Below, in pieces: positions 4,021 through 22,722 of a DNA stretch of 64,000 nucleotides; the stretch's first letter is position 1, and the number at the start of each line of letters is the position of its first letter. Made by a program: the position numbers and the translations under genes. The stretch is from assembly GCA_037974965.1 (NCBI GenBank), contig JBBPFI010000003.1, positions 744,001-808,000 on the forward strand, in the 5' to 3' direction. The stretch is from Dacryopinax spathularia (taxonomy: Eukaryota > Basidiomycota > Dacrymycetes > Dacrymycetales > Dacrymycetaceae). Below the pieces are notes generated by a model that saw nothing but the letters and a program-made list of their open reading frames with translations, was not told the origin of the DNA and did not search any database.

Positions 4021-4457
4021 ACGTGCGGCTGAGAACAGCAGAAAACGAAGGTCGAGAAGAATAGAAGGACTGCCGCACGCCATCTCCGGCGAAGAGTGCT
4101 TGGACAGTAATAGTTTCTCCTGATCGCAGAGTGTGCACTTCTGTGATACCGTAGACATCCTTAGCGGGGCACCCTAGTATCCCGCAAGAACACGAAATGA
4201 ATATGATCTCTTGACATGCCGTTCTCTTCCGAGTGCCAAGCACCCGAGGTTGCGTACTTCTACCGTCCAGTCACCACGAGAAGATCGCGGCAGCGCCAAG
4301 AGGACAGGGCGGAATACCATATCAAGGCACAGGGCGTGGGCCTCCGCAAGATGTCGTGATGGAATAGCATACAGATGCATATCCTCGTGATACCTACGCA
4401 CAGGTGTCCTGCTACACTAGCCAATACCCGATGTAGCTCTCAATGCCCTAGACCCGC
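4021..4457. other. Convergent spacer PMM / RPL30
   Basis: Shared 3' region between phosphomannomutase copy 2 (plus) and RPL30 (minus). No further gene or structured element was recognised. Confidence 0.5.
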
Positions 4458-4943
4458 TCATGCAGCAGCGCCACCCTCAGTAGCAATGGTGAGCAGGTCG
4501 CTGTCACCCTGGTCGGAGATGGTCATCACACTGCGCAAGAAGTCAGCATCCGCCACCCGTTGATGACTGCATATTCATGCTCACCCGACGCGGAACAGCT
4601 TTCCAGCAGCGGTACCAAGCGCAACGTTGGACCCAGCAAAGTGGTGGACGGCAGTCTTTGAGAGCATGGCATAGTACTCAATTTCCGACTTCCGTAATGG
4701 GGGGCAGTTGCCGGCGATAAGGATGAGTTTGGCTAGAGGAGAGCAATGTCAGCGGGGCCTTCTCAGCTAACGCTCCAGCCCCACGGCGAGCACAGGAGGA
4801 AGAATCTCACCCTTGCCACTGCGCATCTGCTTGAGTGCGGACTTATAGCCCAGGGTGTACTTGCCCGACTTGACGACGAGGGCGAGACGGGAGGCGATGG
4901 ACTCCGTCGACTTGGCGGACTTGGACTTCTTGGTGGGGGCCAT
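4458..4943 (-). CDS. RPL30: 60S ribosomal protein L30 (eL30)
   Basis: Component of the large ribosomal subunit. Read on the minus strand, coding exons are 4811-4943, 4585-4732 and 4458-4530, giving 117 aa. The start [16 protein letters not shown] and the blocks [38 protein letters not shown] and [20 protein letters not shown] are diagnostic of eL30. The length is slightly above the usual 105-115 aa because of a short Ala-rich tail. A 51-nt 5'UTR intron (4951-5001) ends eight bases before the ATG, as is common in fungal ribosomal-protein genes. A palindrome shared with the RPL11 promoter and an 18-base C tract lie upstream. Confidence 0.97.
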
Positions 4944-5076
4944 TGGAATACTGAAAGGCGTGTAAGATGAAGAATGCTCAGGTTGATATTGCTGCACTTA
5001 CGAGGTCGCCGGCGGATTGCTGCTGGTGTTGGTGAACGTCGGTGCGAAGGACGGAAAGGGTAGCACTGAGTTTTGG

Positions 5077-5088
5077 AACTGTACAGTT
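5077..5088. promoter_or_regulatory. Palindrome AACTGTACAGTT upstream of RPL30
   Basis: This perfect 12-bp palindrome lies about 75 bp upstream of the 5'UTR intron donor of RPL30. The identical 12-mer occurs about 95 bp upstream of the RPL11 start codon at 50058-50069. Its presence at similar distances in the only two ribosomal-protein promoters of the window suggests a binding site for a dimeric activator of these genes (inference). Confidence 0.5.
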
Positions 5089-5111
5089 CCTTTTTGCACA
5101 GCCACACAGAT

Positions 5112-5129
5112 CCCCCCCCCCCCCCCCCC
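5112..5129. repeat. Poly-C tract (18 C)
   Basis: Eighteen consecutive C, or G on the RPL30 coding strand, upstream of RPL30. It may be a nucleosome-excluding or G-quadruplex-capable tract. A similar 15-C tract occurs at 14683-14697 inside the large element. Confidence 0.8.
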
Positions 5130-5845
5130 GGCACTCAGCACGTGACCTACGAGTGCCCGGCGTCTAATTAACTGAGACGAACAGCGAACATTAACAGCTA
5201 CTAGTGATCGGAAAGGTTGCGGCATGGTCATAGTCATGCAAGAGGAGGAACCACTCGGTCATGTACAGGCCCTTTCGGGATGACGCCTGATGAACTGGGA
5301 TATGCAGGACATAGCGCTGACACTTACTGAAATCCAAACTCAATGCGAGCAAATACAGCTATAAGTACAATGGCTCTCACCCGGACGAAGACATAGGGCG
5401 TCAGCATTCGCCAATCTTACCGGGTTGTAACAAGTCAAACGATCTGCTGCACTTTCTGGGCAGTTCTTTGAGTTGCCATATTGGGTGGCCAATTCGAACG
5501 CCGTCCTGGATGGCCGCGCCGTAACTAAGAAGCCGGGACATGGCGACCCAGGCAGCAGCAGTTGGCCACAAATCCGGGCCTGAGATAGCATGCTGTCCAC
5601 CCTCGCGCCCGCCATTCGGTGGTCAGACCAGAACGGTCTTGCGCAGACGACCAGGATATGTGCGTAGTGGAGAGGCTGTACTGCCAGATCGTAGCACCTT
5701 CAAAGCAACCACGGACATCGCCATTTGACCGGGAAGTCAATCTTTGACGATTGAGGTCCCTCCTAATAAAACTCTTCAACAAATGCATTGTCCACTGTTA
5801 GTGGTTGACGCATGCGATCTTGATTGGCCCTGCCAAAGGGAGGTG
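5130..5845. other. Spacer between RPL30 and the large element
   Basis: No supported gene. Overlapping short frames on both strands show no domain or splice pattern. The left terminal repeat of the large element starts at its right edge. Confidence 0.45.
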
Positions 5846-5888
5846 GTCATACGCTGAGTATGAGGTTACGTATGGGTCATAACCCTGG
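5846..5888 (+). repeat. Left terminal inverted repeat of the large element
   Basis: About 43 bp matching the reverse complement of 22681-22722 at roughly three quarters of positions, including TATGAGGT and AACCCTGG. The match fades outward of about 5846. Confidence 0.7.
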
Positions 5889-5899
5889 GAACCTCCACC

Positions 5900-6290
5900 C
5901 TGCCGCGCGCCGCACCCCTCGAGCACCCGAAAAGCACCCGCCCCACCCTAGATGCACCCTGTAGTCACTCTACACGCAGTATTCACTCACCGGCCACCTT
6001 GTATTCACTCATCACGCACTCCCCACTCTCTGTGCACTCCTCTAGCATTCCCTGGACACCCGGGAATCACTCATACCCCTGCACTCCCGACGCTCCCTGT
6101 GCGAGTGCAGCTCTGCTCGCTGTCAGGGTCCTCGCCCTTGGCACCCCCTCCTCACCGCCTGCTCACCTCGCCAGCACTCTCCTGCAATCCACCATGCACT
6201 CCCCCAGCATCCCTCGCTCACTCACGCGAATGTCATTCCCCCTCCCTACGCCGCCAAACATCATTCATGGGGCTCCCGGGATCAACTGAA
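5900..6290 (+). repeat. Left subterminal motif array
   Basis: Many degenerate copies of GCACCC, GCACTCC or TGCACYCC on the plus strand, spaced 10-30 bp, directly inside the left terminal repeat. The same motif on the opposite strand fills 22560-22680 inside the right end. This mirror arrangement is what subterminal transposase-binding arrays look like. Confidence 0.65.
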
Positions 6291-6591
6291 GCCCCGCGGG
6301 AAGGCGCGATAACACGGCCGACATTAGGGGGTCCCGCAGGCTCGCAATCCGCGGCAACGGTCACTGGGGTGCTTCTAATTGATCATCACCATCCGCTCAT
6401 GATTCGTAGGATACCCAATGCCAATCCCGTTTTTTCTGCATGTCGCGTGACTCGTGGACGCGCCGTGTTTATTTTGGCCGGCTAGAGACAGCTGACGTGG
6501 AAGCTTTCGTTCGTCTTTTGAATCCCTATCCTTCTTCGTTACGCTAACTCAAAACTCAGCCATCTCTCCACTCTTGCCTGCATCTACCACG

Positions 6592-9500
6592 ATGAGCATT
6601 CCCGAGGCTCCAGGGCCTACCCCCGTTATCTCAGCCTTTGCTCCAGCTCGGACGTTTGCAGCAATACCCGGCCTTCCCGCTGCTACCACTTCTTTTCGTG
6701 AAAGGTTCGAAGAACAGCAAGGTATCACTCCAAATGACGACCGGCTGGCGGCATCGGCACGACATCCTCCTGAGCTCAGGGGCCGATCTGGACGCCTAGC
6801 TCGTGCAGGTAGAAACCGTGCTGGCCGCGGATTCGCGTTTTTGACCGCTACGCCCGGAGGAGCTTCAGCGACCGATCGCGGCTTTACTATGGCTCCCACA
6901 AACAGCATACCGGTCGACCTCGTCAATAATGGGAATCGCGATATATCCGGGAATCCCAGGCAACCCGGCATTACCGGGGATACACAGTTGCAGACTAGGA
7001 GCAATGGAGCGCATGGTGGTCGCGGGAGGAGTCGTGTCTATGTTATGATACTCCCTTGTCCGGTACGTCCAAATGCCTTTCGTCTCTACTATGATTGCTA
7101 ATCCCTTCAGCTCGGTGGAATCGAAGGTGTCTTTCCGCTCTCCGACTCGCATGGCGTACGACCTTATGCTGGGCTGAACCTAGCAAGGCTTCGCGTCATG
7201 ATGGATCGCTTCAAGCCACTCGGGCTGGCTTTCGAGGTCGCTCCCCATCTCGGCACCTTCGAAGACCTCAACGTCGCCCTTCTCAGTCATATGCACGATC
7301 ACGGCCTATACTTCCCTGCCCGGCCTGCAGATGGACCCTCCCTTGCTGGCAACTCAGAGTCAGGCCGACATACTCTTTTCATGCCTGAACTCTATAATTT
7401 CGTGCGCCCGAGGGAACAGGAAAGCAATCCGCCTGGACCCTACCAAGTTATACATGTGAAGCCCACAGTCCCTATTCACAACCACCTGAAGACCTTGTAC
7501 AAGCATTGGAGGATAGTGGAGGAAGACAATCGCTTTCCTGCCCATTTGGCCTTTGTAGGTGCGCTTGTATTCCCACTGCTGCACTCGTCCCCCCATACTC
7601 ACCCATCTACTATTTCAGTCCCTCGATATGGAGGAATCCCGGGCTATCTCCCTGAAGACCTTCAGCGCGGGCCCGGTCGACACCTCTGTTTCATCCGGTG
7701 GGCTTTGTATCTTCTTTCGCATTGCGATGTCGGGTCCACCCATCTCGACAACGCCTGCTTGGGCCTTTCAGCTTGTATTGTACCCCTCCCACCTTTCCCT
7801 GATGCACCTCCATCCGATAGTATTGTCAGCGCGACCGAGCCCGACGGTGCCAGGGATACTCATGCCGTAAGGTCGGCTGTCGTTGCCTTTACTGCAACAT
7901 CTCAGGATGCAGCAGTAGCGCCGGTGTTGGCTGACATCCTGCAATCTACCGCGGTGCTCGTGGATGACTTTCCGCTTCGCCAGCACACGCCATTGGTAGC
8001 TCCGAGTCCTCCGCATAGCCGAGCGGAAGCCGCTATGACAGCCTTCCAGCTGAATATGTACGACAATGCATCCCAGGCCGCTCCGGACCTGATCGAGTCA
8101 CTCACAATGCTATCCCCTTCGCAACCCGTACTGCCACCTCCCCCGCACCTGTTGGAAGTCCGCTCTCCAGAAATGGCGGATGGTCCAGAATTTCAGGTGG
8201 CCGTCCCGGGATCCCCAGCAATATCGGGATTCCCAGCAATATCGGGATCCCCAGAAATATTGGGATTCCCGGGAATGATGAGTGGGTCTGAAGGTCAGGC
8301 TCCATCTTCTCCAATTGCCGCTCGCCCCTCGTCTTCCACGGCGCAGTCATGACGTCAAATCTCTCACTCCCCTCCCTCTTCTGCGTCACCGCCTCGCCGT
8401 CGAGTACGTCCCCGTCGATGGTCGCCAACTCCCTTCGTTATCGACCTCACCCAGGATCATGAAGACATTGTGATGGAAGAGGCAGCTCGGCAAGACGATG
8501 CCGCATTTGGGCTTTTCACTACAGATCCAGACTCTGATGATGATGAAGGTCTCGACCCAAGCTCTCCAGGTACGTCGGCAGCTCCCTTCGGTGTCCTTTT
8601 CCTGATGCTTGCTTGACAGTCTGGCGTCCTCCCTTGATGCCCTTGCTCTCCTCTACTCAAACCGCTCGTTGGTCCAGGGAGGCAGCCCGCCACATCGAAG
8701 CTCCCCCGAGTGGCTACGATAAACCGTTTGTTGCTTACATTTATGATGGCCACCCATCATCGTACACTGAGCCCGCCTTCGAATCACTTGCTGGTCAGAT
8801 TGTCAACGATCTTTGGCTGTTACTCGGCAAAGCGTTCCCATGCCCACACTCAAATTCTCCGACGCCCTCGCATCAAGCGGTCATGCAGCTGAGGGACTAT
8901 TGTGCTGCCCTTACCCCCGGACACTTGAAGGTTGAGATGTGCGTTGTCTCGGGTCTACTTCTGCCAGTTACTCAGTATTCTATAGATGGGTGCAAGGTGA
9001 TCGTTACGTGAATCGCCGACGCTTGATTACAATGGGGGCCGGTCCGAGCCGAGTCACGTTCCACATGGCAATGGGCCATTACCTGAAGAAGAAGCCGCTC
9101 TCCCACATCACCACTTTTGACGGGTATATTGGGATTCGCCCTCTTATCGGCTACCACTACACGGACGATTTGTTCTGGACCGGCATCGGCATTCTAAGTG
9201 TTCTCTGGATACTTTTTGGGCAATCCCCGCCCTTCAATATTTCCCCCTTCCTCCTCCTCATCGGCGCGTCTGATGACTTTGACGCAGCCCTTGAAATGTG
9301 CGAGGACCTAGCCTTCATTCGCGCCTTTGCACCGATTGGCGCCAGCTGGCTGACCTCCTGGGATCGGCTCAGTAAAGACCATGTTTCCGACCCCACTTTT
9401 GTCCAGAAAACTTCCACCTCCGTAGCAAAACATGCGATAAGCGACTTTGGTCCTATCCTGGACGCCATTGATGAAGTATGTCCCCTGTTCGACCCAATGA

Positions 9501-10397
9501 TCCAACGCACTGACGACCTACGGTTCAGGAGTGTCCTGCGGAGTTGGCAAGCTGGAAGATGACACGCAGCGAGCACCGCCGCATCAGGGTCAAGCTGCGC
9601 AATTACTTTCTCTTTGGAGACGCCGAAGTGTCAGTGGTAGGGTCACAGATATTGTCTTTGCGGGGTGGATTGTGATACTTCGATCGCCTTAGAAAGGTGC
9701 TGCTTTAATTGTCTGATTATGAAGGCTGCTGACGTCGAAGCAGTATTATGTTTCCCAGGCATTCCAGGATTTCCCGACCTTCCTTTGCGTCCTCTACCGA
9801 GACCTGACGGTCGAACCTGACGGTCGAACCTGACGCCTACCTTGCCCAATGCATATCCTGGCAATCTCCCTCACCCAGTGTACCTCCCAACACGTGGGAT
9901 GATTTCAAACATGCAATCTCCCGCTTCATCAGCAGAGATGGTCTTCCGCCTTTGTCAACAACACCTGGGTCCCAGGGACTGCAAGCCGTGTATGCTACGC
10001 TTGGCGAGTCGGGAAGGATACATTCCTCCGACTCGGCTGCGCTGCGTCGGCCTCATATCCGCCGGATACTGATGAATCTAGCTGTCTTTGGGGTAGAGCG
10101 CCCCTCATCCTCGATGCAGATCCGGGTGAGTACCTCACGAACTATGGATCTTCTCATGCCCAACTGATCGCCGGGTAGATTGGAATCAAGCCTAATATGA
10201 TTCACTTACCTGGGAATGCTTCAACGCAGGTCAGCACTCAGTCGGTTCTACATGCGACTGTCTGCCTCTCTATGCTCGACCTCAAGTACGGCACGGAGCT
10301 GCACGAGCTTGCCATAGCCGATGATGATGGCCTGGAGTTTGACAGAGTGTTCTTTGCCAACTTGCTCACTTCAGGCTCCAGCTTCAACACAATGTAG
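6592..10397 (+). CDS. Large element gene A: long protein with SIM-like motif and weakly HECT-like C-terminal part
   Basis: The largest gene of the element. The first exons are clear: 6592-7062 and 7111-7554, with a third starting at 7619, all in phase and with good splice sites. From about 7.7 kb onward the splice pattern is not resolved, because long frames overlap. Visible parts are a Pro/Gly-rich N-terminal region and a block with YAGLNLARLRVMMDRFKPL. At about 8437-8480 there is a SUMO-interaction-like FVIDLT followed by acidic residues. Near 9.0-9.5 kb it has MGAGPSRVTFHMAMGHYL and WILFGQSPPFNISPFLL. Near 10.25 kb it has ATVCLSMLDLKYG. The last three blocks faintly recall the lobes of a HECT ubiquitin ligase, including a Cys followed by a Leu-rich LP.Y-like stretch, but this is not secure. 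Function unknown; a possible E3-like factor. Confidence 0.4.
8195..8276 (+). repeat. Short tandem repeat with GGGATTCCC core
   Basis: Three to four tandem units of about 18 bp, CCCAGCAATATCGGGATT-like. Translated in gene A they give a Gly-Phe/Ser-Pro pattern. This is the densest cluster of the dispersed GGGATYCC motif of the element. Confidence 0.7.
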
Positions 10398-10589
10398 ATC
10401 ACTCATTTCACCTTATCCCAAGCTACCTTATGCTCTATAGTATTCTAGATCAAGCTGACAATACATTCGTGTTTCTGCCGTTGCGTCTGAGCAAGCTTGG
10501 GAAGTCCTCACGCTATAGCTACCTCTTGATTGTCCGCCTGGTAAACAGGGTCTCCCGGAGTTCCCGGCAACCCCGCAAGCTGTTAGTAG

Positions 10590-10780
10590 AATAACACCTA
10601 TGGGAGAACAACATACCATGACTGAAAACCCTACCTACACTTCCTTGATTGATGTCCTACCCATCGACGCACGTTTGGCTTCGGACAGCATGAACCATCT
10701 ACCCTCTACGACCTACCCGAGTGAGCCGCTATCCCAGGGAATCCATCAACTCCCTGGGATAGGCGTAGCCCCGGGAGTCC
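10590..10780 (+). repeat. Three-copy module, copy 1
   Basis: About 190 bp nearly identical to 20280-20480 and, less closely, to 17155-17365 (both on the minus strand). It includes the upstream ACAACATACC, an ATG and about 54 codons beginning MTENPTYTSLIDVLPIDA. It also contains a perfect hairpin with 10-bp arms, ATCCCAGGGA at 10731 and TCCCTGGGAT at 10751. Confidence 0.85.
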
Positions 10781-12175
10781 AGGGCGACAAAGTCTTCCTG
10801 CTGACGGGCACAGGCGAACCACCTATCACCAAATGGAGTTATTCGACCACATTGAATGCTCCTATTCAGGTCAAGTAGGTGCTTTGGCTCTACGATTGCC
10901 ACCCGAAACAGATGGACCCTATCAGTACTCGCGATAACCACTGCACACAGTCAGCGATTGTTGTACTCAATTTCAACCCCCTACAACTTTGACTGCCGAT
11001 GATGGACTCTGTACCATGGTATCTCACGCGCCAACAGCGAAGAGCCCTGGAACATCGTTCCAGGATCAACATGCCCGATAGATCAGACTTGCCGACTCAT
11101 CCACCACTGGTGCAATTCCCCCACTCTCCCAGTCCATCCGATCTCTCTCTCGGCCCATCACACCCATCACAGCAACAGGTCGAGCAGCGAGGGTTCGACA
11201 TCGGGCCCCAACCGACTGCTATTCCAACTGGGGATCCAGGGTTAGATCTTTCAGGGGGGATAGATGGATACTCGGGGCAAGCGGGAGAGCAGGGAGTAAC
11301 GGGAATGGACGAGCTAGGTGCCAGCGTCCCACCACTCCCGGGGATAGGAGAGTACACAAATGTAAATGCGTACGTTCCGCTTAGCCTTCTATCGTTGGGT
11401 GCATCTCATCTTTCTGAAGATTATTGGGCTCGTTGGCTAGGGAGGTGAGGGATCGTACGATCGCTCAATCCTCTTCGAACGCCGCCAGCACTCTTCCTCT
11501 CCATGCGACCATGCACACATCCGGCCCTTCCATGCCATCGCTGTCAATGGCAATTCCTTCAGACATCCCCTTGGGGCTCACATCCCCCCGTCAGCCCGCG
11601 AACCATTCTCCTTCCATCAGTCCCGACAGGCACCCTCTCCCCGATCGACCAGATAATGCCCAGCTCGACCTTCACAACAGTCTATCGCCACAAGAGGACG
11701 AGACGCGGCATCCATCGCCTCTTCGCGATCGTCTACAAACGGATCAACTGAGTGGGAGTATCGGTAGCCTCGTGTCGTCAGGTGAGTAGTATTGTCCTCG
11801 CGGCCACCTGGTGAATCGGGGCTGATGGTACCTACAGGCGAGCGATTATCCGTTTTACTCATCCTCTTCTTGCGGGATCAAGTCAACGGCAAGATTTACG
11901 GTCGGGCGAGGATGAGGCAGATCGCGTCACGCAGTGCTTCCGAGGTTGACCTGCTCCAGTTCATCTTTTTGCCTTCCCTAGCCCTCCCCAACCATGGACT
12001 TTCGGAGTTCGCTGGGCCCCGATACCAAAACTTCATGCTCGCCACTTCGCAAATCCCGTCGACTTCTAGATCCGGGCCAAACGCTTTTCACTTGCAACCC
12101 GGTCACCATTCGCTGGGAATGCTGGGTAACCTCCTCAGGGGGCAGGAAACTCTGCAGGGCACCTTGGAACAGTAG
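10618..12175 (+). CDS. Element gene B, unknown, begins with the repeated MTEN module
   Basis: A chain of open frames in one direction: 10618-10878, about 10999-11448, 11424-11789 and 11792-12175. They are Pro/Ser-rich and largely low complexity, with plausible GT-AG introns between them, for instance a donor after 11781 and an acceptor near 11838. Exon joints are not fully resolved, and it may be more than one gene. The last segment abuts the TA target of a Tc1/mariner insertion. The coding region may therefore have continued into the open frame on the far side (13.5-14.5 kb). No domain recognised. Confidence 0.35.
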
Positions 12176-13523
12176 CGCGCAAAAGTAATGACCCGCGACG
12201 CACGGGTCCCTGGTCGTCGTCGCGCACCTCTCGTCGTTTCTGTTTACCTACCTCGTTAGCACTGTAGCTCGATTCTCTACTTCATAATCTACTTTGAAAT
12301 TTGGATATGGTAACCACCCGGGCTGCTGCTAGAAATGCCCCTAAGCCACCAAAGCCTAAAGTCTATGCTACACCAACAAAGCGGGCTCGACTCCATGTCC
12401 TTCGAAAACTTGGCATGACCTACCACGAGATTTCGAAAGAGCTCAACCTCTCGATTTCAACTATCAAACGACACCTCAAACGCCTGGACAGTGGAGAAGA
12501 GACCTATTACTCCCCCATACAGCGCCCAGGGCGCAAACCATTGATTACACCAAGATCTCTGGGCCGAGCCATCCGGTACATCGACACAGGCGAGCTCGAC
12601 AATGCGGCAGACTGCCATCGGATTCTCTTCCCCCACGTCAGCGCTTCGACAGTCCGACGAGCACTTGCAAAGCGGGGATTACATGGCCGGGTAGCTGCCA
12701 AAAAGCCTTTGCTTGATGCAGAGCGGGCTGCACTTCGGCTTGAATGGGCTCTGGAGCGGCAAGACTGGACGGCGGAGGATTGGAAACAAGTGGTCTTCTC
12801 GGACGAGTCAGCTGTGAGTGTGTGGGGTAGTTTCGGGCGGCGGTATATCCGGAGGAGGGTTGGGGAGAGATTTCGCAGCGGGAAGACAGCTGTACGCATG
12901 CGCCATCCCAAGAAGGTCTTTGTCTACGGTTGCATCTCAAGTCACGGAGTCGGTCCGCTACATCGTTTTGAGGGGAAGGTTAATTGGGTGAAGGTCATTG
13001 CAGCGGTGGAACACAGCTATCTGGGCGGTCTTCAGCGCTGGAACAAGCATACAACAGACTTCATCTATCAGCACGACAATGACAGAAAAAGCAAAACACC
13101 CGGAGCAATGCAATGGCTTGACGAGCACGAGATCTTCCGAATGGACTGGCCACCATACTCCCCAGACCTCAACATTATCGAAAACTGCTGGCAATACCTC
13201 AAGAGAAGGCTCTACATGCGCCATGGTTATGCTAGGACACCAAATGAAGTGTGGGAGGCCGCTCAGGAAGAGTGGGAAGGAATCCCACTTTCATACCTTG
13301 AAACTCTCTTTGATTCTATGCCACGTCGCATCGCTGCTGTGATAGAAAACAATGGTTATCATACCAAATACTGATTCTATACTGTCGCCTCTACATACCA
13401 TATTAATACCTTTTAATGAACTTCATTGTAAAAAATATGCCTTTCTCCCCCACAAAAATGAGCTCCGGCGAAAGCGACGACGGAACAGGGACTCGCGCGT
13501 CGCGGGTCATTACTTTTGCGCGC
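12175..13523 (+). mobile_element. Tc1/mariner transposon nested in the large element
   Basis: A complete element of 1349 bp flanked by TA dinucleotides at 12173 and 13524. Its inverted repeats are about 45 bp. They begin GCGCGCAAAAGTAATGACCC, are identical over the first 27 bases and nearly so afterwards. It carries an uninterrupted transposase gene. The near-identical ends and intact gene suggest recent movement. The dispersed CCCGGGAAT motif of the host element is essentially absent from it. Confidence 0.93.
12307..13374 (+). CDS. Tc1/mariner transposase (DD34E)
   Basis: A 355-aa intronless transposase catalysing cut-and-paste movement at TA sites. The N-terminal part (residues about 20-110) is a paired-like helix-turn-helix region with ISKELNLSISTIKRHLKR and a GRKPLITPR hook. 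The catalytic triad is visible: Asp in FSDES, Asp in YQHDN, and Glu in SPDLNIIENCWQYLKRR, with 34 residues between the second and third. The usual MDWPPYSPDLNIIEN signature is intact. There are no stops or frameshifts, and the length is normal for the family. The start used is the first ATG, six bases after an in-frame TTG. Confidence 0.95.
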   Translation: MVTTRAAARNAPKPPKPKVYATPTKRARLHVLRKLGMTYHEISKELNLSISTIKRHLKRLDSGEETYYSPIQRPGRKPLITPRSLGRAIRYIDTGELDNAADCHRILFPHVSASTVRRALAKRGLHGRVAAKKPLLDAERAALRLEWALERQDWTAEDWKQVVFSDESAVSVWGSFGRRYIRRRVGERFRSGKTAVRMRHPKKVFVYGCISSHGVGPLHRFEGKVNWVKVIAAVEHSYLGGLQRWNKHTTDFIYQHDNDRKSKTPGAMQWLDEHEIFRMDWPPYSPDLNIIENCWQYLKRRLYMRHGYARTPNEVWEAAQEEWEGIPLSYLETLFDSMPRRIAAVIENNGYHTKY

Positions 13524-13671
13524 TACTGAACCCATCGACCGTTCTTCGGCACGAACACAATCCTTCCTCAACTCCCTGCCATCCCACGTGCCCCGGCGGT
13601 TCTATGATGGCCTGGTCCTGGTTCTCTACTTGGTCAAGTTATCGCCAGCTTGGCAGAGAGTACCGGGCAGT

Positions 13672-14535
13672 ATGCCTAGTACCCCACCGCGAACACCTTC
13701 CCCACCTTCCCCTGCTTCTGCTTCGCATGACCGAGCGAGCCGATCCGGGACAAGAGAAAATGAAGGGAGGATGTCCCCATCTGCCCGATCCGCGTCTCCA
13801 AATCTCGACCACTCTGCCCTTCTCGGGAACACCGGTATTCCCGGTAATCCTGGCATTCCTGGGAGCTCCCCCATCAATGGGGTAAACAGGAGTACAGGGA
13901 GCCGTCCGCCCCCTCGTGCCCATGGTGAGGAGATTCGGGCGGGCACTCAGCATCCCTCCTTCACAGCCCGTGCCGCCTACTTGCAGTCGACATTCGCACG
14001 GATATACCAGATAGTTGACGGCGCTATACCGAGAGAGCAGCGCACAGCCGACACATCGGTTGCCTGGTATATCAAACGCATCGAGCTCTTCAAAGAAGTC
14101 GCTGCCGCATTATCAATGCCCGACGCCCTCATTACCGACGTCTATACCGTTCAGCAACCCGACGGCTGGGATGGGCGAATCACCGCCAACGATCTTGTCT
14201 ATTGGTTCAGCTCCCTTCGACGGGGAGGTGACCTGTCAAGGGCTACGCTCCGCAATCACCACCTCAAGCTTAACAAGTTTCGAAACTTTTGGGACCATCG
14301 TCGAGCATGGTATTTACTGGAACGTTTCCGCTGGGACAAAGGCGACAACATCACCTTGGAGGGACGGGAGAAATTGGAGCTTGCCGGCGTCATTGGATAC
14401 TGCTTCGCTAGAACCGGTGCTGCTCAAGCGGCGCTGTGCGAAGGTACACCTCCTGGATATATAGCAAGGCTCGCTAGCACCTGGAGACCTACGACTACGT
14501 TGAACAAGATCAAGCGCCTTCATCCCGAGCTGTAG
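13672..14535 (+). CDS. Element gene C, unknown protein
   Basis: A long open frame of 287 codons from the ATG, open upstream as far as the Tc1/mariner end. The N-terminal third is Pro/Ser-rich and contains a GIPGNPGIPG stretch encoded by the dispersed CCCGGTAATCC-like motif. The remainder looks globular and basic, with blocks such as VAWYIKRIELFKEVAAALS, DLVYWFSSLRRGGDLSRATL and FRNFWDHRRAWYLLERFRWD. The latter part is helical with many aromatic residues. No family recognised. It may be the downstream part of gene B, separated by the inserted transposon. Confidence 0.5.
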   Translation: MPSTPPRTPSPPSPASASHDRASRSGTRENEGRMSPSARSASPNLDHSALLGNTGIPGNPGIPGSSPINGVNRSTGSRPPPRAHGEEIRAGTQHPSFTARAAYLQSTFARIYQIVDGAIPREQRTADTSVAWYIKRIELFKEVAAALSMPDALITDVYTVQQPDGWDGRITANDLVYWFSSLRRGGDLSRATLRNHHLKLNKFRNFWDHRRAWYLLERFRWDKGDNITLEGREKLELAGVIGYCFARTGAAQAALCEGTPPGYIARLASTWRPTTTLNKIKRLHPEL

Positions 14536-15239
14536 AGGTCGTGAAGACGGGCTTCACTGAATAGATCGGTCAGCAGATAGTATCCCGTTGTATGCGTAAT
14601 TACCTTCGAATGCAGTGTCATCCACCCACGTGTGCCCCCTCGAGCTTGCGTTTGACTGGAGTTGTTTCAACCCTACTGCCCGCCCCCCCCCCCCCCCTTG
14701 CAGTCTCAATATGGACTTGCCCTTCCCGCCGCTAGCTCGCTTCAGCCCGATACCTTGGATGTGAAGGAACTTTGAACGTACTGGCAGCCGGCCATGGTTG
14801 CTCCATGCGGCCCGATTCGCCGGAGCCTGGGATTTGCGAGTGTACCGGGATCCAGCGAATCTCTCGGGATTAGCGGGTGTCACGCGCTTTGCGAGAGCAC
14901 CGGGATTTCCAGCGATACTGGGGCTGCCGCCAAGGATAGCGAAACAGTGGTGGCGAATCATAGCATTGTAGTGGCGACGCGTCACTCAACATACATGACT
15001 CGTCTTCCGAGGCGAAACACTCGGTGAGTCACTTTCAGCAGTCACGTAACGCTTCACAATGACTCTATAAGCAGCTCGACGCTCCTGCAGTCGTCCCCAC
15101 AACTTGGTTTCACTCCACCACCGTCCCTCCCTTGTCTCCCAACGTTCCAATTCATTCCGACAGCCTTATACGTACGCATACACTTACTACCACTTTGTGA
15201 ACGGCCCCATCGACGCCTTCCTACCCGCATACATTCAGC
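14536..15239. other. Spacer with poly-C tract and motif cluster, promoter of gene D
   Basis: Contains a 15-base C tract (14683-14697) and a cluster of GGGATT/CCGGGAT motifs at 14828-14930. A TATA-like TATAAG at 15066 lies about 175 bp before the start codon of gene D. No convincing gene. Confidence 0.5.
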
Positions 15240-16883
15240 ATGCCCAGCACTCGATCTTCTTCAACGCGCTCGAGCCGCCGGCACAGTCCTACTCCTGAGC
15301 CCGAGCCTACCCCTACCCCCGAGACGGACCCTCCCTCCGACCAAGATCCCGCGGAGAGCAATTCGGGCGATGACACTTGCAAGGAAGACGAAGGTGACCC
15401 AGACGTCCTCACTGTCTATACTCTGCAGGGATCGTTCTTTCAGAGCCTGGACGACGGCTACCAGGCAGAGGTCTGCAAGCATGTGCGTGTCGCCAAGGTC
15501 ACTGCGGCTCGCGAAGGCTACCTTATCTACTGTAAGTGCATCAGCCGGTTGTAGCATGGCAGAGACTCACGTACCTTTAGCTTGCTGCTTCAATAGTGAT
15601 CCCGATTGCAAGTGCGGGCATTGGGGTGAGTAATTGGATATGGTCTCTGGTGCTTCCAGCGCATATACTTACCTTGCTTATCACAGAGACGTCTCACTCT
15701 GTCGAAGCTCGTCGTGCCAAGAACATCGGCATCACTGTGACCGGCAAACATCGATATCCTGGCCTCAAAGCACCTCAGTTTGAGGTCGAGCACCTCCTAA
15801 AGGGGGAGCCCATAGAGATCAAGCGCGATGACATCGTGAGAAACAAACGCGCCGCTGAGTCAGCTGCGGAACTGTCTGCTTAGCTTGACCGGCACATGGC
15901 CGCCATCAGGAAGAAGAAGCTTGACCGAGCCCGCAGTAAGGCTTTGGGTAAGTCAACAGACCGCAGTTCCGGGAATAACAGTGCGGCCGGGCGGGCTGGG
16001 GGCTGCGGGACGCCCGGGAATGACAAGCGTCCCGACAGAGCCGGTGGATCAGCGACTTCTGGGACGAGCCGCTCAACGCCTGCAAGCAACAACAATACGA
16101 AGACGGGAAAGCAGCAAACTGTACGGTTCGACCTCTCTCGCACTGAGTCCGTTGGGGACAAGACCAGCGAGTCGGCTTTCAGCAAGGATCGAAACAAACG
16201 CGCAGGGTCTGCTCTAGACTCGGTAAGTGCTACTCCCGGCTGGCAGAGATCTGCCTGACACCTGAGGTCTCCTTGGCTTAGGACGTCGATGATGAACCCC
16301 CCCGGCAAAGACGCAGGACTGACGACGACGACCCCGACGCTATCTTGGCTGACGCGCTGAAGCGTCTTAGTCGTCCATTCGTGAGCTACCGCATCAAGCT
16401 CGATTTTGTCGGCGAGATATTCGGAGACTTCCGCATCTTCGAACAGGATTTGCGGTCTGAGGCGACAGGTATTCTCGAGATGGTGGAGAACTTGGAAAGT
16501 GCCAAAGAGGTGCTAGAAGAGAACGTAAGTAACCTGCTGTGGAACGCAAGGATATGCTCAGAAGTTCCTCAGATTCCACAGCCGTACAACGATCCATACG
16601 GTGACCCGGACAAAGACATCGTCGAACTCTTGAAAGATGCCAAAGATGTGCTTCGCAAGCCGAATGCTCCCATGGAAGCCAAAATGGCATGGGTTTTGAA
16701 GCTCTTCAAGAACCCCAGCATCTTCAGGCCAATGCTGAGGCGTGCTTGTATTGGGATGATGGAAAACGCTATCAAGACCTACGGAGTGATCAACGATAAC
16801 CGATGTCGTGAGCGTTTCAAGGCTGTATGCACTGTCTTTGTTAGTCTCGCTGTAACTGATAGTTTGCTCAGGACGCCTCGTAA
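15240..16883 (+). CDS. Element gene D, intact seven-exon orphan protein (443 aa)
   Basis: Seven exons fit with perfect phase: 15240-15531, 15581-15625, 15687-15835, 15884-16222, 16282-16524, 16573-16824 and 16872-16883. The introns are 46-61 nt with standard GT-AG ends. The N-terminus is Ser/Thr/Pro- and acid-rich. Exon 2 encodes a Cys cluster, SCCFNSDPDCKCGHWG, that could bind zinc. A basic helix (AAIRKKKLDRARSKAL) and a Ser/Thr/Gly-rich linker follow. The C-terminal 170 residues are helical, with a probable coiled coil around EATGILEMVENLESAKEVLEE and a block PMEAKMAWVLKLFKNPSIF. No known family recognised. Its clean splicing stands out against the other genes of the element and suggests selection until recently. 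Confidence 0.7.
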
Positions 16884-17046
16884 ACACAGAGCATACTCAG
16901 CTTCTATTCCCTCAAGCCCCGGTTGTCCCATAAAGCACGGCGTTACAGAAACATCCTCAGTCTCTCGTGTTACTCCATACATCCACTTTCCTTCCTGGTT
17001 GTTTACGTGCTTGTGTAGTGTCTTGCTTCCTTGCGGTACATTGTCT

Positions 17047-17365
17047 TTAATTCACCTCGGTACGCTTGGAGACTTGTACAGATAGTGACAGTATGATGAA
17101 CATTGTTGATGCGAGTGAGATAAATGTGTTTGGGCCTGTCAGCGGGAAGACAGCATCTCCTGGCACTGCCGGGGCTAAGCCTATCCCAGGGAGTTGATGG
17201 ATTCCCTGGGATAGCGGCTCACTCGGGTAGGTCGTAGAGGGTAGATGGTTTGAGGGTAGATGGTTCATGCTGTCCAAAGCCAAAAGTGCGTCGATGGGTA
17301 GGACATCAATCAAGGAAGTGTAGGTAGGGCTTTCAGTCATGGTATGTTGTGCTCCTATAGGTATG
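17047..17365 (-). repeat. Three-copy module, copy 2, with short open frame
   Basis: Diverged copy of the MTEN module on the minus strand (ATG at 17340). It has an internal 15-bp duplication (HLPSNHLPSTTYPS) and the conserved hairpin at 17183-17212. The frame runs on for about 98 codons but has no recognisable domain. It may be a gene remnant or a short regulatory peptide. Confidence 0.7.
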
Positions 17366-17578
17366 TTGTTTGGCTACCTATAAAGGCCAATCTCTTGAAG
17401 TAGAGAGTGGCTGGTTCTGCAGTTCCAAGCCAAATCTATCGCGTGCCGGGTGAGGAACATTGTTCATTAAACCATTTCCCTCCCATCCCTCCCGTGGCTA
17501 CTAATGCTATCTATGTCGATCTCCATGGCAAGGCTAACATGCTTCAAAGCGCAGTATATCCAAACGAGATATGAATGA

Positions 17579-19362
17579 TTAAGTTTGGCTGGTCAGCCTG
17601 GCACATTCAACCAGTGCACACTTCCAGCGTTCTGTTAGGGTTATGATGTCCGAGACGCCGCATAGGGGACCGACACGGTGAACAAGCGTTTGCACTTGCT
17701 CAGCATCGAGAGGACATGCCACCGCCGGAGAGTCTACGTGCGAGAGACGGGGGGGGAACCGGTCCAAAGTCCGAGCGTCCGTCTGGAAACCAGAGTTAGG
17801 GGGTGGCAGCTGTTCACTTCTTCCCAAGTCAACTTCCAGGGAGCGCTCGTTCTCCCGGGATACCCGCTCATGGTGGGTGGGCTCGTGTGCTCGGTTAAGG
17901 TCTTCTTCATTTGGGTATTCCGATCCATATAGCTCTGGGTCTTGATCGTATTCTGCATCCTCTAGGGGCACAAGGTCGATACCCCGAGCTCCATGAAGCA
18001 AACAGCCGGTTATGAAAAGGTCCGCAGGCCGCTGGTTTCCCTCTGCCAACGACATTGTGTGAAAATTCCATTGATTTTGGAAGTGTATTGCGTCATTGCA
18101 AATGTCGTTCAAGAAAAGCCAGTGAAGAAGCCATATATGATCGAGGTTGAGATGGTTCAGGCTGTGATGTCGTTCGAGATCGTGAAAGAAGTTGGACCAC
18201 TTGCGACCGAAGGAGTTCGTGACATCCACCCACATGCGCTCGATGCGAGTGTTGTGCACTGACCGCCCCCATATGTAGGAGCCACGATTTGCACCACGAT
18301 GCTCCAGCATCCATTCAGCAACCCGAACATTTTCCCCCCCATGATCTCCTCTAACCCGGGACGGGATACCGAAGCCTTCTATGCCCTCGAGAAAAGTGGA
18401 CAGCACGGCGCTGGCGCGGTTGGTTGGGTTCACGTGAATGGCTGTAACACATTGGGAGTATCCATCCACAAAAGCGTGGATATAGATGCCCCATCGGACC
18501 AGCCCGTGTTGACCATCATGATGCCAAAGTGAATTGGGACCCGCGACCTTGTAAGGGTGGCGAGGGATGCGGCGACGATCAAAGGTTCGAGGTTCGGGAT
18601 CGATACGTCGAAGTGCCTCTGTCAGCACACGCAGCGGGACTCGATGCCCGAGGGAGACCAAATGGCCATTCAGAAGGCGTTGTCCGCAGTCCAAGAATCG
18701 ATCTCGCCAGGTCTTGATTAAGGCATCCAATGCTTCGTTGGAGAGGTCTCAGGCTGCTTGTCTCCGCCCGGGCCAGTGCAATCGAGGAGGCTGCCCTGCA
18801 ACCTCAACCTTCTCCACGATAGGAAGGCCAGGCCTGCGGAGACCTGCTTCCAACAGGCAGCGGCGGACTGTGCGTCTACTGATCTGAAGGCGACGAGCGA
18901 TTGCGGACGCTGAAGCAAGTCTTGATGTCTCTTCGAGATAGGTGGGATGAATGAGGATGCGAGGGCGCCCGGGACGCCCAGGTCCCCCTGGAGACCGGGC
19001 GAGAATCTGGGGTATCGCCCTAGGTATATTGTCGGAGCTCAGCGTGAGAGCATCTTTGAGCATTGCCGCCATGTCACGCAGGTCGCGCTCGACCTGAGCA
19101 ACGTGTGTAGGTAGAAGCAAGTGGAAGACCTGTGTAGGGAAGGAGTGAGGTCACTAGGGCATGTGGGACTCAGGCTTACCTCTCTCGCAGTCTCCCAAAA
19201 GCGGGTAACCATCTCCCGGGTTTCCTGAAGCCTTCCCCGATGACCCACATCTATCCTGAGCGTTGCTGACACCGTCCGCTGGAGTCGTTCAAAGTGGGAA
19301 CCAACCGTTGCGCCGGCGAGCTCGGGATTTCGGTGAAGCGCCTCGATGTTGAAGGTAGCCAT
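17579..19362 (-). pseudogene. DDE integrase-like gene of the large element
   Basis: Integrase-core (rve-type) protein, the likely recombinase of the element. Read on the minus strand, it begins at MATFNIEALHRNPELAG (an upstream in-frame ATG exists at 19503). A 50-nt intron sits at 19130-19179. A helix-turn-helix region follows (SAIARRLQISRRTVRRCLLE), then a helical region and the catalytic core. The core shows WHHDGQHGL, RVRGDHGGENV and RIERMWVDV, so all three acidic residues are visible. It resembles integrase-core proteins that are multicopy in many basidiomycetes and some animals. There is no reverse transcriptase, RNase H, chromodomain or LTR nearby. The gene appears to carry about one break, so this copy is probably no longer active. 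Confidence 0.75.
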
Positions 19363-19648
19363 GGGCGTCACAGCTGCGGATGGATAGGAGAAGAGGGGGA
19401 GGGGATGATTTCCTGTCGAGGGCGGGAGGGGCGAAGGAAGGGTACGCGCGCTGCACGACGACGGCGCTGAGGCCTGCGTCCTCCGCTCAAACAGCCTCCA
19501 CATCGAGGGGAATCACGCGAACACCGGGAACGCCAGAAATGAGGGGAATCACAGGGTATGTTATTGATGACCTAGGCGTAAGGTGATTTACAATGTGCTT
19601 ATGACGACAGGAGTCACTGCCTAAGGAGGACAGGAAGAGGTACAAGAA

Positions 19649-20449
19649 TTACGCAAAACAGGGCAGATACCTGAGCAGTCCGGCGCGGATGGTTTCTACG
19701 GCATAGACGGATGCGCTGAGGACGGAAAACAACGTGTTGGCAATACGTTGACCATCTTCGTATGCCCGTATACGCGCCGCCGTTGTTGCGTAATCCTCTG
19801 GCGCATCCCCGGCTTTCTCGTCACCCGGTTGCCCCAGTTGCGCTAGTTGCACCGGCAGAGCTGGTTGCAAACCAAGAAGACGCTCCGCGTAGTGCCCTGG
19901 GACTTCTAGGACGTCCAGTGTCGCATGCATAGTGCGGGTAACGGCAGCGTACGTGCGTTCGCAGATAATAGCCTTCTCGGTTGGGATGAAACCCGAGTTA
20001 GGGTTGTAACTGGATTTAGGGTTGTTAGGGTTAGGGTTGCGCAACCCTAACTCGGCGAAGGCCTTCCATCCACCCTCTGGAGTCGCCTCGGATGGTCTCG
20101 TAGCTTTCTCACTGAGGGGTCCTAGGGAGCCCGTCAGATGCCCCGGGATGCTTCATGGATTGGCGATTGGGCGTGTCGAGGTGTCCTCAGTAGGGGGTGG
20201 GTAGTGTGACTCGTGAGCGGAGCCATTCTTGGAAAGCGGTGTGGAGAGTGCATCGTCCGTGTCCGTGGGCTGGACATCGTCTCCCGACACTCCCGGGGCT
20301 ACGCCCATCCCAGGGAGTTGATGGATTCCCTGGGATAGCGGCTCACTCGGGTAGGTCGTAGAGGGTAGATGGTTCATGCTGTCCGAAGCCAAACGTGCGT
20401 CGATGGGTAGGACATCAATCAAGGAAGTGTAGGTAGGGTTTTCAGTCAT
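19649..20449 (-). CDS. Element gene E, begins with the MTEN module, unknown
   Basis: A first exon starting at MTENPTYTSLIDV (20449) is followed, after an unresolved intron with an acceptor near 20122, by a frame running to 19649. The second part has FIPTEKAIICERTYAAVTRTM and RIYARIRAYEDGQRI-like helical sequence and no known domain. Part of the coding DNA consists of TTAGGG-type repeats, which translate to an Asn/Pro-rich stretch. It could be the upstream part of the integrase transcription unit or a separate gene. The exon joint is uncertain. Confidence 0.35.
19994..20053. repeat. Interstitial telomere-like TTAGGG repeats and palindrome
   Basis: About six TTAGGG or CCCTAA units, partly degenerate, within 60 bp. 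They include a perfect 20-bp palindrome, TTAGGGTTGCGCAACCCTAA (20031-20050), and outer arms CGAGTTAGGGTTG in inverted orientation. Confidence 0.9.
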
Positions 20450-20490
20450 GGTATGTTGTGCTCCTATAGGTATGTTGTTCGGCTATGAGA
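20280..20490 (-). repeat. Three-copy module, copy 3
   Basis: Minus-strand copy almost identical to 10590-10780, including ACAACATACC before the ATG and the ATCCCAGGGA/TCCCTGGGAT hairpin at 20307-20336. Confidence 0.85.
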
Positions 20491-20895
20491 ATGTCAGTCT
20501 CTTGTTGAAATGGGTTATGTACCGTACGAACGTTAGGAGGAGGTGATGGTAACGGAGCAAGGTGGCACATTGCATCCGCTGGCACCCCTGGCACTGCTTT
20601 ATATACACAGACCCAAGCAGTAGTCATGTGCGACATGTCATCATTGCCACGTGGTCAAATTCCCCCTTTTGGAATGCTAAATCTTTATTACTGTAACCCA
20701 GTCCCGTAAGAGGATATGCATTGTTGGAGTTGCCTACAGTATAGAGGCCAGGTACGAGTACGAGTAAGACCTACCACGCAAATCCGACAGATGCAGATGC
20801 GCGACGGAACAGTAGTCCTTGCGATCTCATTACAGTATGCATGGGCGTAACAACGGGGGGACGGGATATAGTGACAACAGAGGGAATCTCGTGAG
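20450..20895. other. Intergenic part of the element
   Basis: No gene supported. Holds the upstream region of copy 3 of the module and the downstream region of gene F. Confidence 0.4.
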
Positions 20896-20946
20896 GACTA
20901 ACGGGAATGCCAGGACTAACGGGAATGCCAGGACTAACGGGAAACC
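20896..20946. repeat. 18-bp tandem repeat (GGACTAACGGGAATGCCA)
   Basis: Nearly three perfect units just downstream of the stop codon of the small membrane-protein gene. Each unit carries the GGGAAT half of the dispersed motif. Confidence 0.9.
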
Positions 20947-20986
20947 ATGGATATGACTGAGTAGCAGAGAGAGGAAAGAAAAAAAT

Positions 20987-21884
20987 TCAAAGAACAGTAC
21001 TCGTGACGTTCGCAGCAGCGATAGTAGCAGCAGCGATGGTAGCCGAGGTAATAGAGGCCGCAACCCCACCAGGCGAAGAGGAGTGAGCCCTCGCATTGAG
21101 CGTGATCGCGACTGCGTTCGGTAAGAATTTGATGTCTGCATGGCCCGGAGGACTCACCGTAGACGATGCCCACGATGACGGCCACGAAAACGGCAATCCA
21201 GAATATGGCAACGCAGAAGCGTGTGGCGAACTCGTCGGTCCAAGTATCCCCAGCGCCCTGACAGGCCGAGCTGGACGACCAGCAGAACCAGCGACAGACG
21301 GCGTTGAAGGCGGGCCCGCATCCGCTCATGCATTCCCCGATGGCGTCGAAGACGTTCAAGATGACCTTAGCACAGCTCAAGCCGCGCTCTCGAGCACGGG
21401 CACGGTTGAGGCAATAGTACGCGGCACGCTCGGCATCAGACATCTGGGGCCCATCGTTATTCCTGGGAATTGTGGAATTCCCTGCATTGCCGGGATTGGC
21501 AGGAGTACGGGAGCCAAGAGAAATGGCGTCCATCTCGCCGTCCACCTGTAAGCAGTCAGTGTTTGCAAGCATGGGATAGTTAATGTACGCTACCTGGGCC
21601 CATCCACCGCGATCCCTGCGATCCAACAATCCATCCAGACTGTTGCGCCCATCATGCTCCTCGGGATACACGCTCCTGGTCGTAGTGGTAAGGTCGATAG
21701 GGTGTTGGGATCCTCCAAACGTCGCATTAAAGGAGGCGCCATCTTCCATGTTCGCAGGGCGGTCGTCGTTGTGATTGTTTCTCTCGGAGCGGCGGTGAGC
21801 AATTTCGTCCTCGAGAGCAGCGGTGTTGAAGGGGCGGCCAGCACGTCTAGATCTATCGGCGAGGTTGCGAAGGAAGCTAGACAT
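20987..21884 (-). CDS. Element gene F, small single-pass membrane protein (267 aa)
   Basis: Three exons on the minus strand fit in phase: 21594-21884, 21158-21545 and 20987-21111, with 48- and 46-nt introns. The N-terminus is basic and disordered (MSSFLRNLADRSRRAGRPFN), followed by HPIDLTTTTR, which resembles a SUMO-interaction core. A Cys-rich stretch follows (GECMSGCGPAFNAVCRWFCW), then a strong hydrophobic segment (FCVAIFWIAVFVAVIVGIVY, about residues 205-225) and a small-residue-rich Ala/Thr tail. There is no signal peptide, so it is probably anchored in an internal membrane with the N-terminus in the cytosol. Family unknown. The start chosen is the first ATG after the 5' region that gives a basic N-terminus; an upstream in-frame ATG exists. 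Confidence 0.6.
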
Positions 21885-22049
21885 CCTGGCCGAGGATGGA
21901 TGGCAAGTGGAGAGAGGAGAGAGAGGGACAGACGAGCGAAGCTGGCAAGGGTACAGCTGTGATACCGGGCGACGGAAGCAAAAACACGTGGCTCCGCACA
22001 GCATGATGACTGGGTCCCTATGTCGCCACAACCGTTCAGAACGCGAATT

Positions 22050-22100
22050 TGAGTATATTAATTTTTATATTAATTTTTATTAGATACTAATTATTATAAC
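22050..22100. other. AT-rich block near the right end
   Basis: An unusually AT-rich stretch (ATTAATTTTTATATTAATTT and onward) in an otherwise GC-rich element. It could ease DNA melting at the end or mark a relic insertion. No coding content. Confidence 0.6.
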
Positions 22101-22559
22101 AGACCTTACCCTGCAAGGCTTGTCTATAAGGCCTGCAGGGAGGAGAAAATACCTACTAATGACTCCGCCGATAGTCCTGGTGCTCCCGGGAGTCCCGGGA
22201 GCCCCAATAATGAAGGTCGTCGAGGGAAGCCAAGTGGCTGTACCGTACCTATTCGTTGGTTTCGATTGTCTTCGCGCCTAGGCAAAAAGCTTCTGTCCGA
22301 AGCACCAAAACACAGCCTCTCCGGGTGGAAATCGGTCAGAAGCATAGGGTGCCGAGCTTCTCAAACGGGACCCCTGTAGCAAGTCAGATGGATGATCCCC
22401 CGGCTGTCCATGGGATAATGTACCCGGGAAGCCAGGTGAGAACCGACGGAGCATCCACCGGGTATCCCAGCCTGGCGAAAGAGCTGGATGGCGGTCTGTC
22501 GAGCTCGAGATTTAGATAGACGTTCACACTCAATCTGCACTGCGAAAGTGCAGGTGGAG

Positions 22560-22680
22560 TGGGCGAGGCGGGTGAGTGCCGAGTGCACCCCGGGTGCAAG
22601 AGGAGTGTGGGGTGCAGAGCGAGTGCGGCTGGGGTGCACCCGGAGTTTTCCGGGTGCAGGGGGAGTGCAGGGAGCGTGGG
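22560..22680 (-). repeat. Right subterminal motif array
   Basis: Copies of GGGTGCA, GAGTGCA or GGAGTGCAGG (the reverse complement of TGCACYCC) directly inside the right terminal repeat. They mirror the left array at 5900-6290. Confidence 0.65.
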
Positions 22681-22722
22681 CCAGGGTTCTGTCCCATATG
22701 TCACCTCATAGCTGAGGCATGC
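22681..22722 (-). repeat. Right terminal inverted repeat of the large element
   Basis: Contains CCAGGGTTCTGTCCCATATG and ACCTCATAGCT, the inverse of the left end. It lies about 190 bp before the start codon of the Ran-binding-domain gene. Confidence 0.7.

Follow-up and report, generated by a model that had tools for sequence, protein, structure and literature searches.

A decayed copy of a very large transposon family, probably related to IS3EU, in the basidiomycete Dacryopinax spathularia

Introduction

Which kind of genetic unit ends in inverted repeats, lies between ordinary-looking genes and holds an integrase-like gene among several genes of its own? This question is raised by a stretch of 64,000 nucleotides of Dacryopinax spathularia (contig JBBPFI010000003.1, positions 744,001 to 808,000; G000:C3:744001-808000), hereafter called the window. 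From its letters alone, an original prediction had marked an element of 16.9 kb at 5846-22722, bounded by terminal inverted repeats (TIRs), rich in cargo and possibly undescribed. Here, the ends, genes and copies of this element are followed through the genome (29.2 Mb in 24 contigs, numbered below with the prefix C). The element is probably a decayed copy of a very large DNA transposon family that is related to the IS3EU superfamily.

Ends and copies of the element

The element occupies 5859-22710 of the window and is 16,852 bp long, which agrees with the predicted size; the predicted limits were 12-13 bp too wide on each side. Its TIRs are identical at 26 of 30 bases (TATGAGGTTACGTATGGGTCATAACCCTGG against TATGAGGTGACATATGGGACAGAACCCTGG) and only 14 of the following 30 agree, just as diverged inverted ends had been described. 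GCTGAG stands directly outside both ends. The mirrored subterminal arrays were also found: CACTC occurs 11 times in the left 600 bp, against 0.8 per 600 bp in the interior, and GAGTG 6 times in the right 600 bp, against 0.6. The motif TCAC[TC]C is found 8-17 times at the left end of four other copies, with 6-10 complements at the right and 0.3-0.5 in the interior. It is weaker in the window copy (5 left, 1 right); in those four copies, in turn, few CACTC complements stand on the right (0-2). The end features of the window copy are as follows.

5853..5858, no strand: left target-site duplication GCTGAG (flank reading)
5859..5888, plus strand: left TIR, TATGAGGTTACGTATGGGTCATAACCCTGG (end comparison and TIR pattern search)
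5889..6458, plus strand: left subterminal array of CACTC motifs (motif counts)
22111..22680, minus strand: right subterminal array of GAGTG motifs, mirroring the left one (motif counts)
22681..22710, minus strand: right TIR (end comparison and TIR pattern search)
22711..22716, no strand: right target-site duplication GCTGAG (flank reading)

These ends are shared by other copies in the same genome, and the genes between them recur genome-wide in TIR-bounded units. A TIR pattern allowing up to 3 mismatches gave 15 matches and none in the reversed control, and a variant pattern gave 9 against 0. A looser pattern, again with up to 3 mismatches, gave 50 matches (32 of them with at most 2) against 18 in a control that was not split by mismatch number. 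Nine large copies of 12-39 kb have both ends.

C3, 5859-22710 of the window: the window copy
C5:658770-673846: copy C5
C8:686671-698987: copy C8a
C8:1024607-1040063: copy C8b
C2:1060897-1075854: copy C2
C8:43967-60611: large copy
C3:2226096-2242329: large copy
C4:504769-543886: giant copy C4, 39,118 bp
C11:390130-429073: giant copy C11, 38,944 bp

Six further copies, on C5, C2, C10, C18, C12 and C16, are miniatures that measure 0.43-0.47 kb and consist of the ends only. A target-site duplication is present in all 13 copies in which both flanks were read, namely the nine large ones and the miniatures on C5, C2, C10 and C18, the C12/C16 pair being outside this reading. Twelve duplications are exact. 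They measure 7 bp in eight copies (with one mismatch in C8a), 6 bp in four and 8 bp in one, and none of 156 swapped flank pairs, used as a control, had an exact match of 6-8 bp. TATGAG or TATGAC stands at both ends of the 13 copies, and one end of the C12/C16 pair reads TATGGC. In five copies, 25-28 of the first 30 bases of the two ends match and only 8-14 of the next 30.

The two giant copies give a sign of recent movement. Counted inward from the outermost base of the TIR, a T, C4 and C11 are identical at 472 of 473 bases, and around the integrase at 99.84% over 3,831 bp, whereas their flanks are unrelated (63 of 200 bases agree) and their duplications differ (CGCCCAG and CAGGCGC). The comparison covered 4.3 kb of the 39 kb, and the lengths differ by 174 bp. 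Near-identity begins at the first TIR base. A recent transposition of a 39-kb unit would explain these copies most simply. The C4 giant has further open reading frames (ORFs) between the integrase and the gene called g4 below, about 21 kb of this copy being unread. Among them are three diverged paralogous ORFs (115-1233, 4455-5849 and 7548-8741 of piece L065), which share a [PD]PGW motif, are 29%, 24% and 20% identical in pairs, and have no Pfam match. Near the right end of this 39-kb copy, a long minisatellite-like array was seen by eye (L069, C4:542001-543800), with units like GATTGTCYGATT.

Integrase and genes of the element

The predicted DDE integrase-like gene was recovered as a match to PF24764 rva_4 (Pfam scan, E=1.8e-60). 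In the open C5 copy, the catalytic triad is D285, D342 and E377 with a D-E spacing of 34, and no HHCC motif was found in this protein. Searched by itself against PDB, the integrase had no match at E<=0.001. Its named relatives among the matches listed are fungal or fish proteins, many others being listed unnamed. The expectation of at least six spliced genes is borne out by our splice models: by translated comparison, g1, g2, g3, g4 and g7 are kept in sister copies and g6 is kept weakly. The interior of the window copy is arranged as follows.

6592..7780, plus strand: conserved part of the spliced gene g1 (own model), which has about 420 amino acids in sister copies; without Pfam match
8649..10400, plus strand: g2, spliced, conserved part; in-frame TGA at 9673-9675
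10596..10812, no strand: R1, repeat of about 200 bp, copy of the g6-side segment, inverted relative to R2 and R3
11547..14535, plus strand: g4, inverted relative to compact sister copies and split by a nested Tc1/mariner element
12170..13528, plus strand: nested Tc1/mariner element with TIRs of 46-55 bp and an intact ORF of 358 amino acids (12298-13374; DDE_3, E 1e-11)
15240..16824, plus strand: g3, spliced, with a Cys/His-rich stretch (CCF..DP.CKCGHW), inverted relative to compact sister copies
17131..17376, no strand: R2, repeat of about 200 bp, inverted relative to R1; R1 and R2 bracket the inverted block
17579..19371, minus strand: DDE integrase/transposase, PF24764 rva_4, preceded by a helix-turn-helix-like stretch and probably spliced; a TGA at 18749-18751 interrupts the frame prematurely
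19487..20377, minus strand: g6, small and weakly conserved; model uncertain
20273..20485, no strand: R3, repeat of about 200 bp, overlapping the 5' side of g6
20771..21884, minus strand: g7, about 300 amino acids in sister copies, with hydrophobic residues in a segment close to the C terminus (seen by eye)

In compact copies, g1 and g2 lie on one strand and are followed by g3, g4, integrase, g6 and g7 on the other. Conserved gene order, which the prediction had proposed to look for, was found in C5, C8b and C2, and with gaps in C8a (translated comparison of the window with C5, C8a and C8b; nucleotide comparison of C8b with C2). The window copy departs from it by the inverted block. This copy is dead, because its integrase and g2 each contain a TGA, g4 is interrupted by the Tc1/mariner element and a block is inverted. 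Stop-free integrase reading frames occur in other copies of the family. R1-R3 were also considered as miniature inverted-repeat transposable elements, and this was rejected: they are copies of the g6-side segment, and no others were seen in the stretches compared, no genome-wide search being made.

How closely do these genes follow the integrase? Protein searches of the whole genome covered g1, g2, g3 and g4; exon matches were grouped into loci by hand, and linked means here a distance of at most about 45 kb to a member of the integrase clade introduced below. g2 gave 30 matches in 15 loci, each beside its own integrase of that one clade and no more than 42 kb from it. g4 gave 17 matches in 14 loci, 13 of them near a clade integrase (13 of the 15 integrases are accompanied), and g1 gave 22 matches in 12 loci, all 12 linked (12 of 15). 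g3 gave 27 matches in 7 loci, all linked, which are the seven compact copies (7 of 15). In the eight other loci, called wide-span, g2 and integrase are 17-41 kb apart; for example, the integrase lies between g2 and g4 on C4, and g4 lies between g2 and integrase on C6. With g2 at all 15 clade integrases, g4 at 13, g1 at 12 and g3 at 7, g1-g4 look like the element's own genes. On this count, calling the element cargo-rich was misleading.

The clade was defined by a FastTree tree of 137 sequences. This genome contributed 23 of them, taken from 21 loci, and the other 114 were those of 120 listed database proteins that cover the domain; integrase fragments at C12:1020755 and C8:534319 were excluded. 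The 15 gene-linked loci form one clade with no other sequence inside (local support 0.997). Six other integrase loci of this genome, none with a g2 of its own, form a separate clade (0.999) grouped with database proteins. Since all 15 gene-linked loci fall into one clade, the gene set seems to have been acquired once and then kept with losses. The other clade holds two near-identical pairs without private genes, C7:1340533-1341468 with C12:250868-251803 (99.3%) and C8:1598030-1598896 with C8:1074043-1074909 (97.0%), identities being measured over 3.3-3.5 kb. These pairs may be recent copies or duplications.

The genes also appear to have been under selection. By the Nei-Gojobori method, 34 comparisons were made among pieces of g1, g2, g3, g4, g7 and integrase. 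The ratio of nonsynonymous to synonymous substitution rates (dN/dS) was 0.06-0.20 in 24 of them; the other 10 were saturated, with a ratio of proportions (pN/pS) of 0.20-0.38. Rough as they are, such values show long-term constraint on the genes of a multi-copy element.

The private proteins given to Pfam, PHROGs and NCBIfam had no usable match, g2 showing no more than a weak signal of collagen-like low complexity. The profiles of g1-g4 found nothing significant in PDB (best E 0.66); the element genes appear to match no known family. Against 5.8 billion proteins, the g2 profile found at least one relative, CALVIDRAFT_530982 of Calocera viscosa, and the g4 profile at least one from the same species. 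In each of these searches up to 8,000 candidates were scored, and low-complexity words may hide other relatives. Both Calocera proteins are annotated merely as hypothetical, and their source is in keeping with a dacrymycete host. The conserved CCF..DP.CKCGHW stretch of g3 may bind metal. Collagen-like GXPG repeats (e.g., PGIPGMPGIPG) were seen in linkers of the g1, g2 and g4 proteins in several copies. The C terminus of g2 at first suggested the C-lobe of HECT ubiquitin ligases; Pfam and PDB profile searches gave no HECT match, and this identity is not claimed.

Surroundings of the window copy

Flanking genes that look like housekeeping genes had been noted on both sides. On the left is a short L7Ae/L30e-like exon (Pfam E 0.0098, below the curated cut-off), which we take to resemble ribosomal protein L30, and on the right a gene with a RanBP1 domain (Pfam E 1.8e-12). 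A 318-bp piece of the left end is present twice more at 93% identity, at C1:2500597-2500914 (L011) and C8:348074-348391 (L005). Both were tried as further elements and rejected, being fragments within one larger repeat with the same flanks. The right-hand 301 bp of the window copy have no other match at the nucleotide level.

Relation to known elements

IS3EU elements are reported to have TA..TA termini, usually 6-bp duplications and an integrase-like transposase without HHCC; those of rusts have TIRs longer than 30 bp that end in TAYGG, and TET+ fungal families also bear an alpha-kinase gene (Kojima 2023, PMC10045372; Kojima 2025, PMC12730594). The same papers describe IS3EU/GingerRoot as an integrase-driven superfamily that lacks both capsid and polymerase; in fungi, additional genes are found in some of its members (PMC10045372, PMC12730594). 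This corrects the earlier view that the integrase-driven elements known so far are either small or equipped with capsid or polymerase genes. The present family resembles IS3EU in its TA..TA termini, TIRs, DDE transposase without HHCC and, for some fungal families, extra genes. It is unlike IS3EU in its length of 12-39 kb and in having the private g1-g4 instead of TET/JBP and alpha-kinase, and its terminus is TATGAG/TATGAC rather than the TAYGG of rusts. We call the family IS3EU-like and do not take its membership of IS3EU as proven, since the tree contains no named transposase of that superfamily. Among titles, abstract openings and open-licence PMC text, Repbase and Dfam entries being outside this check, no paper was recognised as describing it. 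It is most likely an undescribed lineage, as had been suspected, and one that would lie near a known superfamily, which had not.

Basidiomycetes also have Kyakuja-Dileera-Zisupton (KDZ) transposons, which can carry extra genes (PMC12730594), and in this the present family is similar. It differs from KDZ in that its transposase matches rva_4/rve and not the KDZ type; DDE_3 was matched only in the nested Tc1/mariner element.

Several points weigh against placing all these copies in one IS3EU-related transposon family. Duplications are most often of 7 bp (8 of 13) and not of the 6 bp reported as usual (4 of 13), the TIR match of about 30 bp is shorter than the >30 bp reported for rust elements, and the tree is without a labelled IS3EU transposase. 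The alpha-kinase profile PF02816 has 19 matches in the genome and none in the element spans; this gene is a trait of the TET+ subgroup and not of the whole superfamily, and TET/JBP was not searched by family. Both ends were located in only two of the eight wide-span loci, whose gene order is unlike that of compact copies. In the genome-wide protein search, g3 was undetected at all eight of them, g1 at C8a, C14 and C7, and g4 at C1 and C14. In C8a, most of g1 and of the g6 region is missing, and stops interrupt both g4 and the integrase. An integrase without private genes (C8:1074043) sits 34 kb beyond the limits of C8b, within 45 kb of the C8b g2 and outside the C8b TIRs; C8b carries an integrase of its own besides. 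Conversely, a g4 homologue at C13:494844-496427 has no nearby match to integrase, g1, g2 or g3, and may be a remnant or a domesticated copy. Finally, the gene models come from our own splice search and not from RNA, dN/dS is approximate with dS above 1 in 19 of the 24 finite pairs, and the evidence for mobility consists of copies within one assembly without an empty site.

Alternative explanations

A bolder version of the transposon reading, which we put forward only tentatively, is that the family represents an undescribed class of giant elements, perhaps confined to Dacrymycetes. In it, an IS3-like integrase would have acquired its own multi-protein apparatus (g1, g2 and g4, with g3 and g7 in compact copies) for transposing, replicating or packaging units of 12-39 kb. 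The element might even be a transposon in transition towards a virus-like existence or away from one.

Would the family then be viral already? It is unlikely, in our judgement, to be an endogenised DNA virus of the Polinton/adintovirus type. In that case conserved structural proteins would accompany the integrase, g1-g4 and g7 would serve the virion or entry, and the polymerase would be lost or unrecognisable. What suits such a virus is the size range of 12-39 kb, the large TIR-bounded form with an rve integrase inside, and a recurring set of lineage-specific genes that evolve fast, among them one whose product has a hydrophobic segment. Polinton/Maverick elements, for which 6-bp duplications are reported, are likewise large and TIR-bounded with an integrase-like gene and several conserved genes (compared in part in PMC10045372). 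However, no B-type polymerase is present in any element span, which speaks against Polinton. The only PF03175 match in the genome (G000:C19:27816-29084) has an in-frame TGA, lies outside all element spans and is perhaps mitochondrial or plasmid DNA. At the sequence level, no capsid, packaging ATPase or protease was recognised in the private protein pieces given, which had no significant match in Pfam, NCBIfam or PHROGs. Moreover, g2, g4 and integrase found no relative in viral_contigs, the named integrase relatives among the matches listed are fungal or fish, and the duplications are mostly 7 bp, not 6 bp.

Similarly improbable is that g1-g4 came from the host and ride along passively, like the cargo of Starships, without contributing to mobility. 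Starships are reported from Pezizomycotina and use a tyrosine recombinase (PMC12134995). The likeness is a giant multi-gene mobile unit in a fungus; the present family differs by its DDE integrase with TIRs and duplications, and none of 10 window ORFs scanned is a tyrosine recombinase, the 39-kb copies being read in part. Genes without recognisable function, whose order and content differ between compact and wide-span copies, would fit cargo, and so would the further genes of a 39-kb copy such as the three L065 paralogues. Against this, g2 is one-to-one with one integrase clade and g1, g3 and g4 go with most of that clade or with its compact copies, constraint is seen between copies, and among g1-g4 a single g4 homologue was found away from integrase.

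The housekeeping look of the flanking genes might suggest a host gene cluster caught by chance between two unrelated inverted sequences, a reading with almost nothing left to it, since nine two-ended large copies with duplications stand at different places and near-identical 39-kb copies have different flanks, which refutes it unless the assembly is wrong.

Possible mechanism and implications

For the IS3EU-related transposon, a mechanism can be proposed. The integrase would pair the TATGA(G/C)G ends and cut them by DDE cleavage, and strand transfer would join them to the target across a stagger of 6-8 bp. The mirrored CACTC/TTCAC arrays may be binding sites for the integrase or for a private protein, and miniature copies would be mobilised in trans. 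g1-g4 would be factors of mobility, replication or evasion of silencing, acquired a single time by the lineage, as opposed to cargo from the host. The g4-g3 block of the window copy may have been flipped when the inverted repeats R1 and R2 recombined.

Giant mobile elements of fungi are known mainly as the tyrosine-recombinase Starships of ascomycetes. The family in D. spathularia would be a basidiomycete element of up to 39 kb with a DDE integrase, represented by copies that are near-identical where compared and accompanied by miniatures and by uncharacterised proteins that follow one integrase clade. It raises a testable question, namely which proteins an IS3-type integrase requires beside itself before tens of kilobases can be mobilised in a eukaryotic cell. 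Since the relatives of g2 and g4 in Calocera viscosa carry no label beyond hypothetical protein, genome annotation may be counting the genes of such elements as orphan genes of the host.

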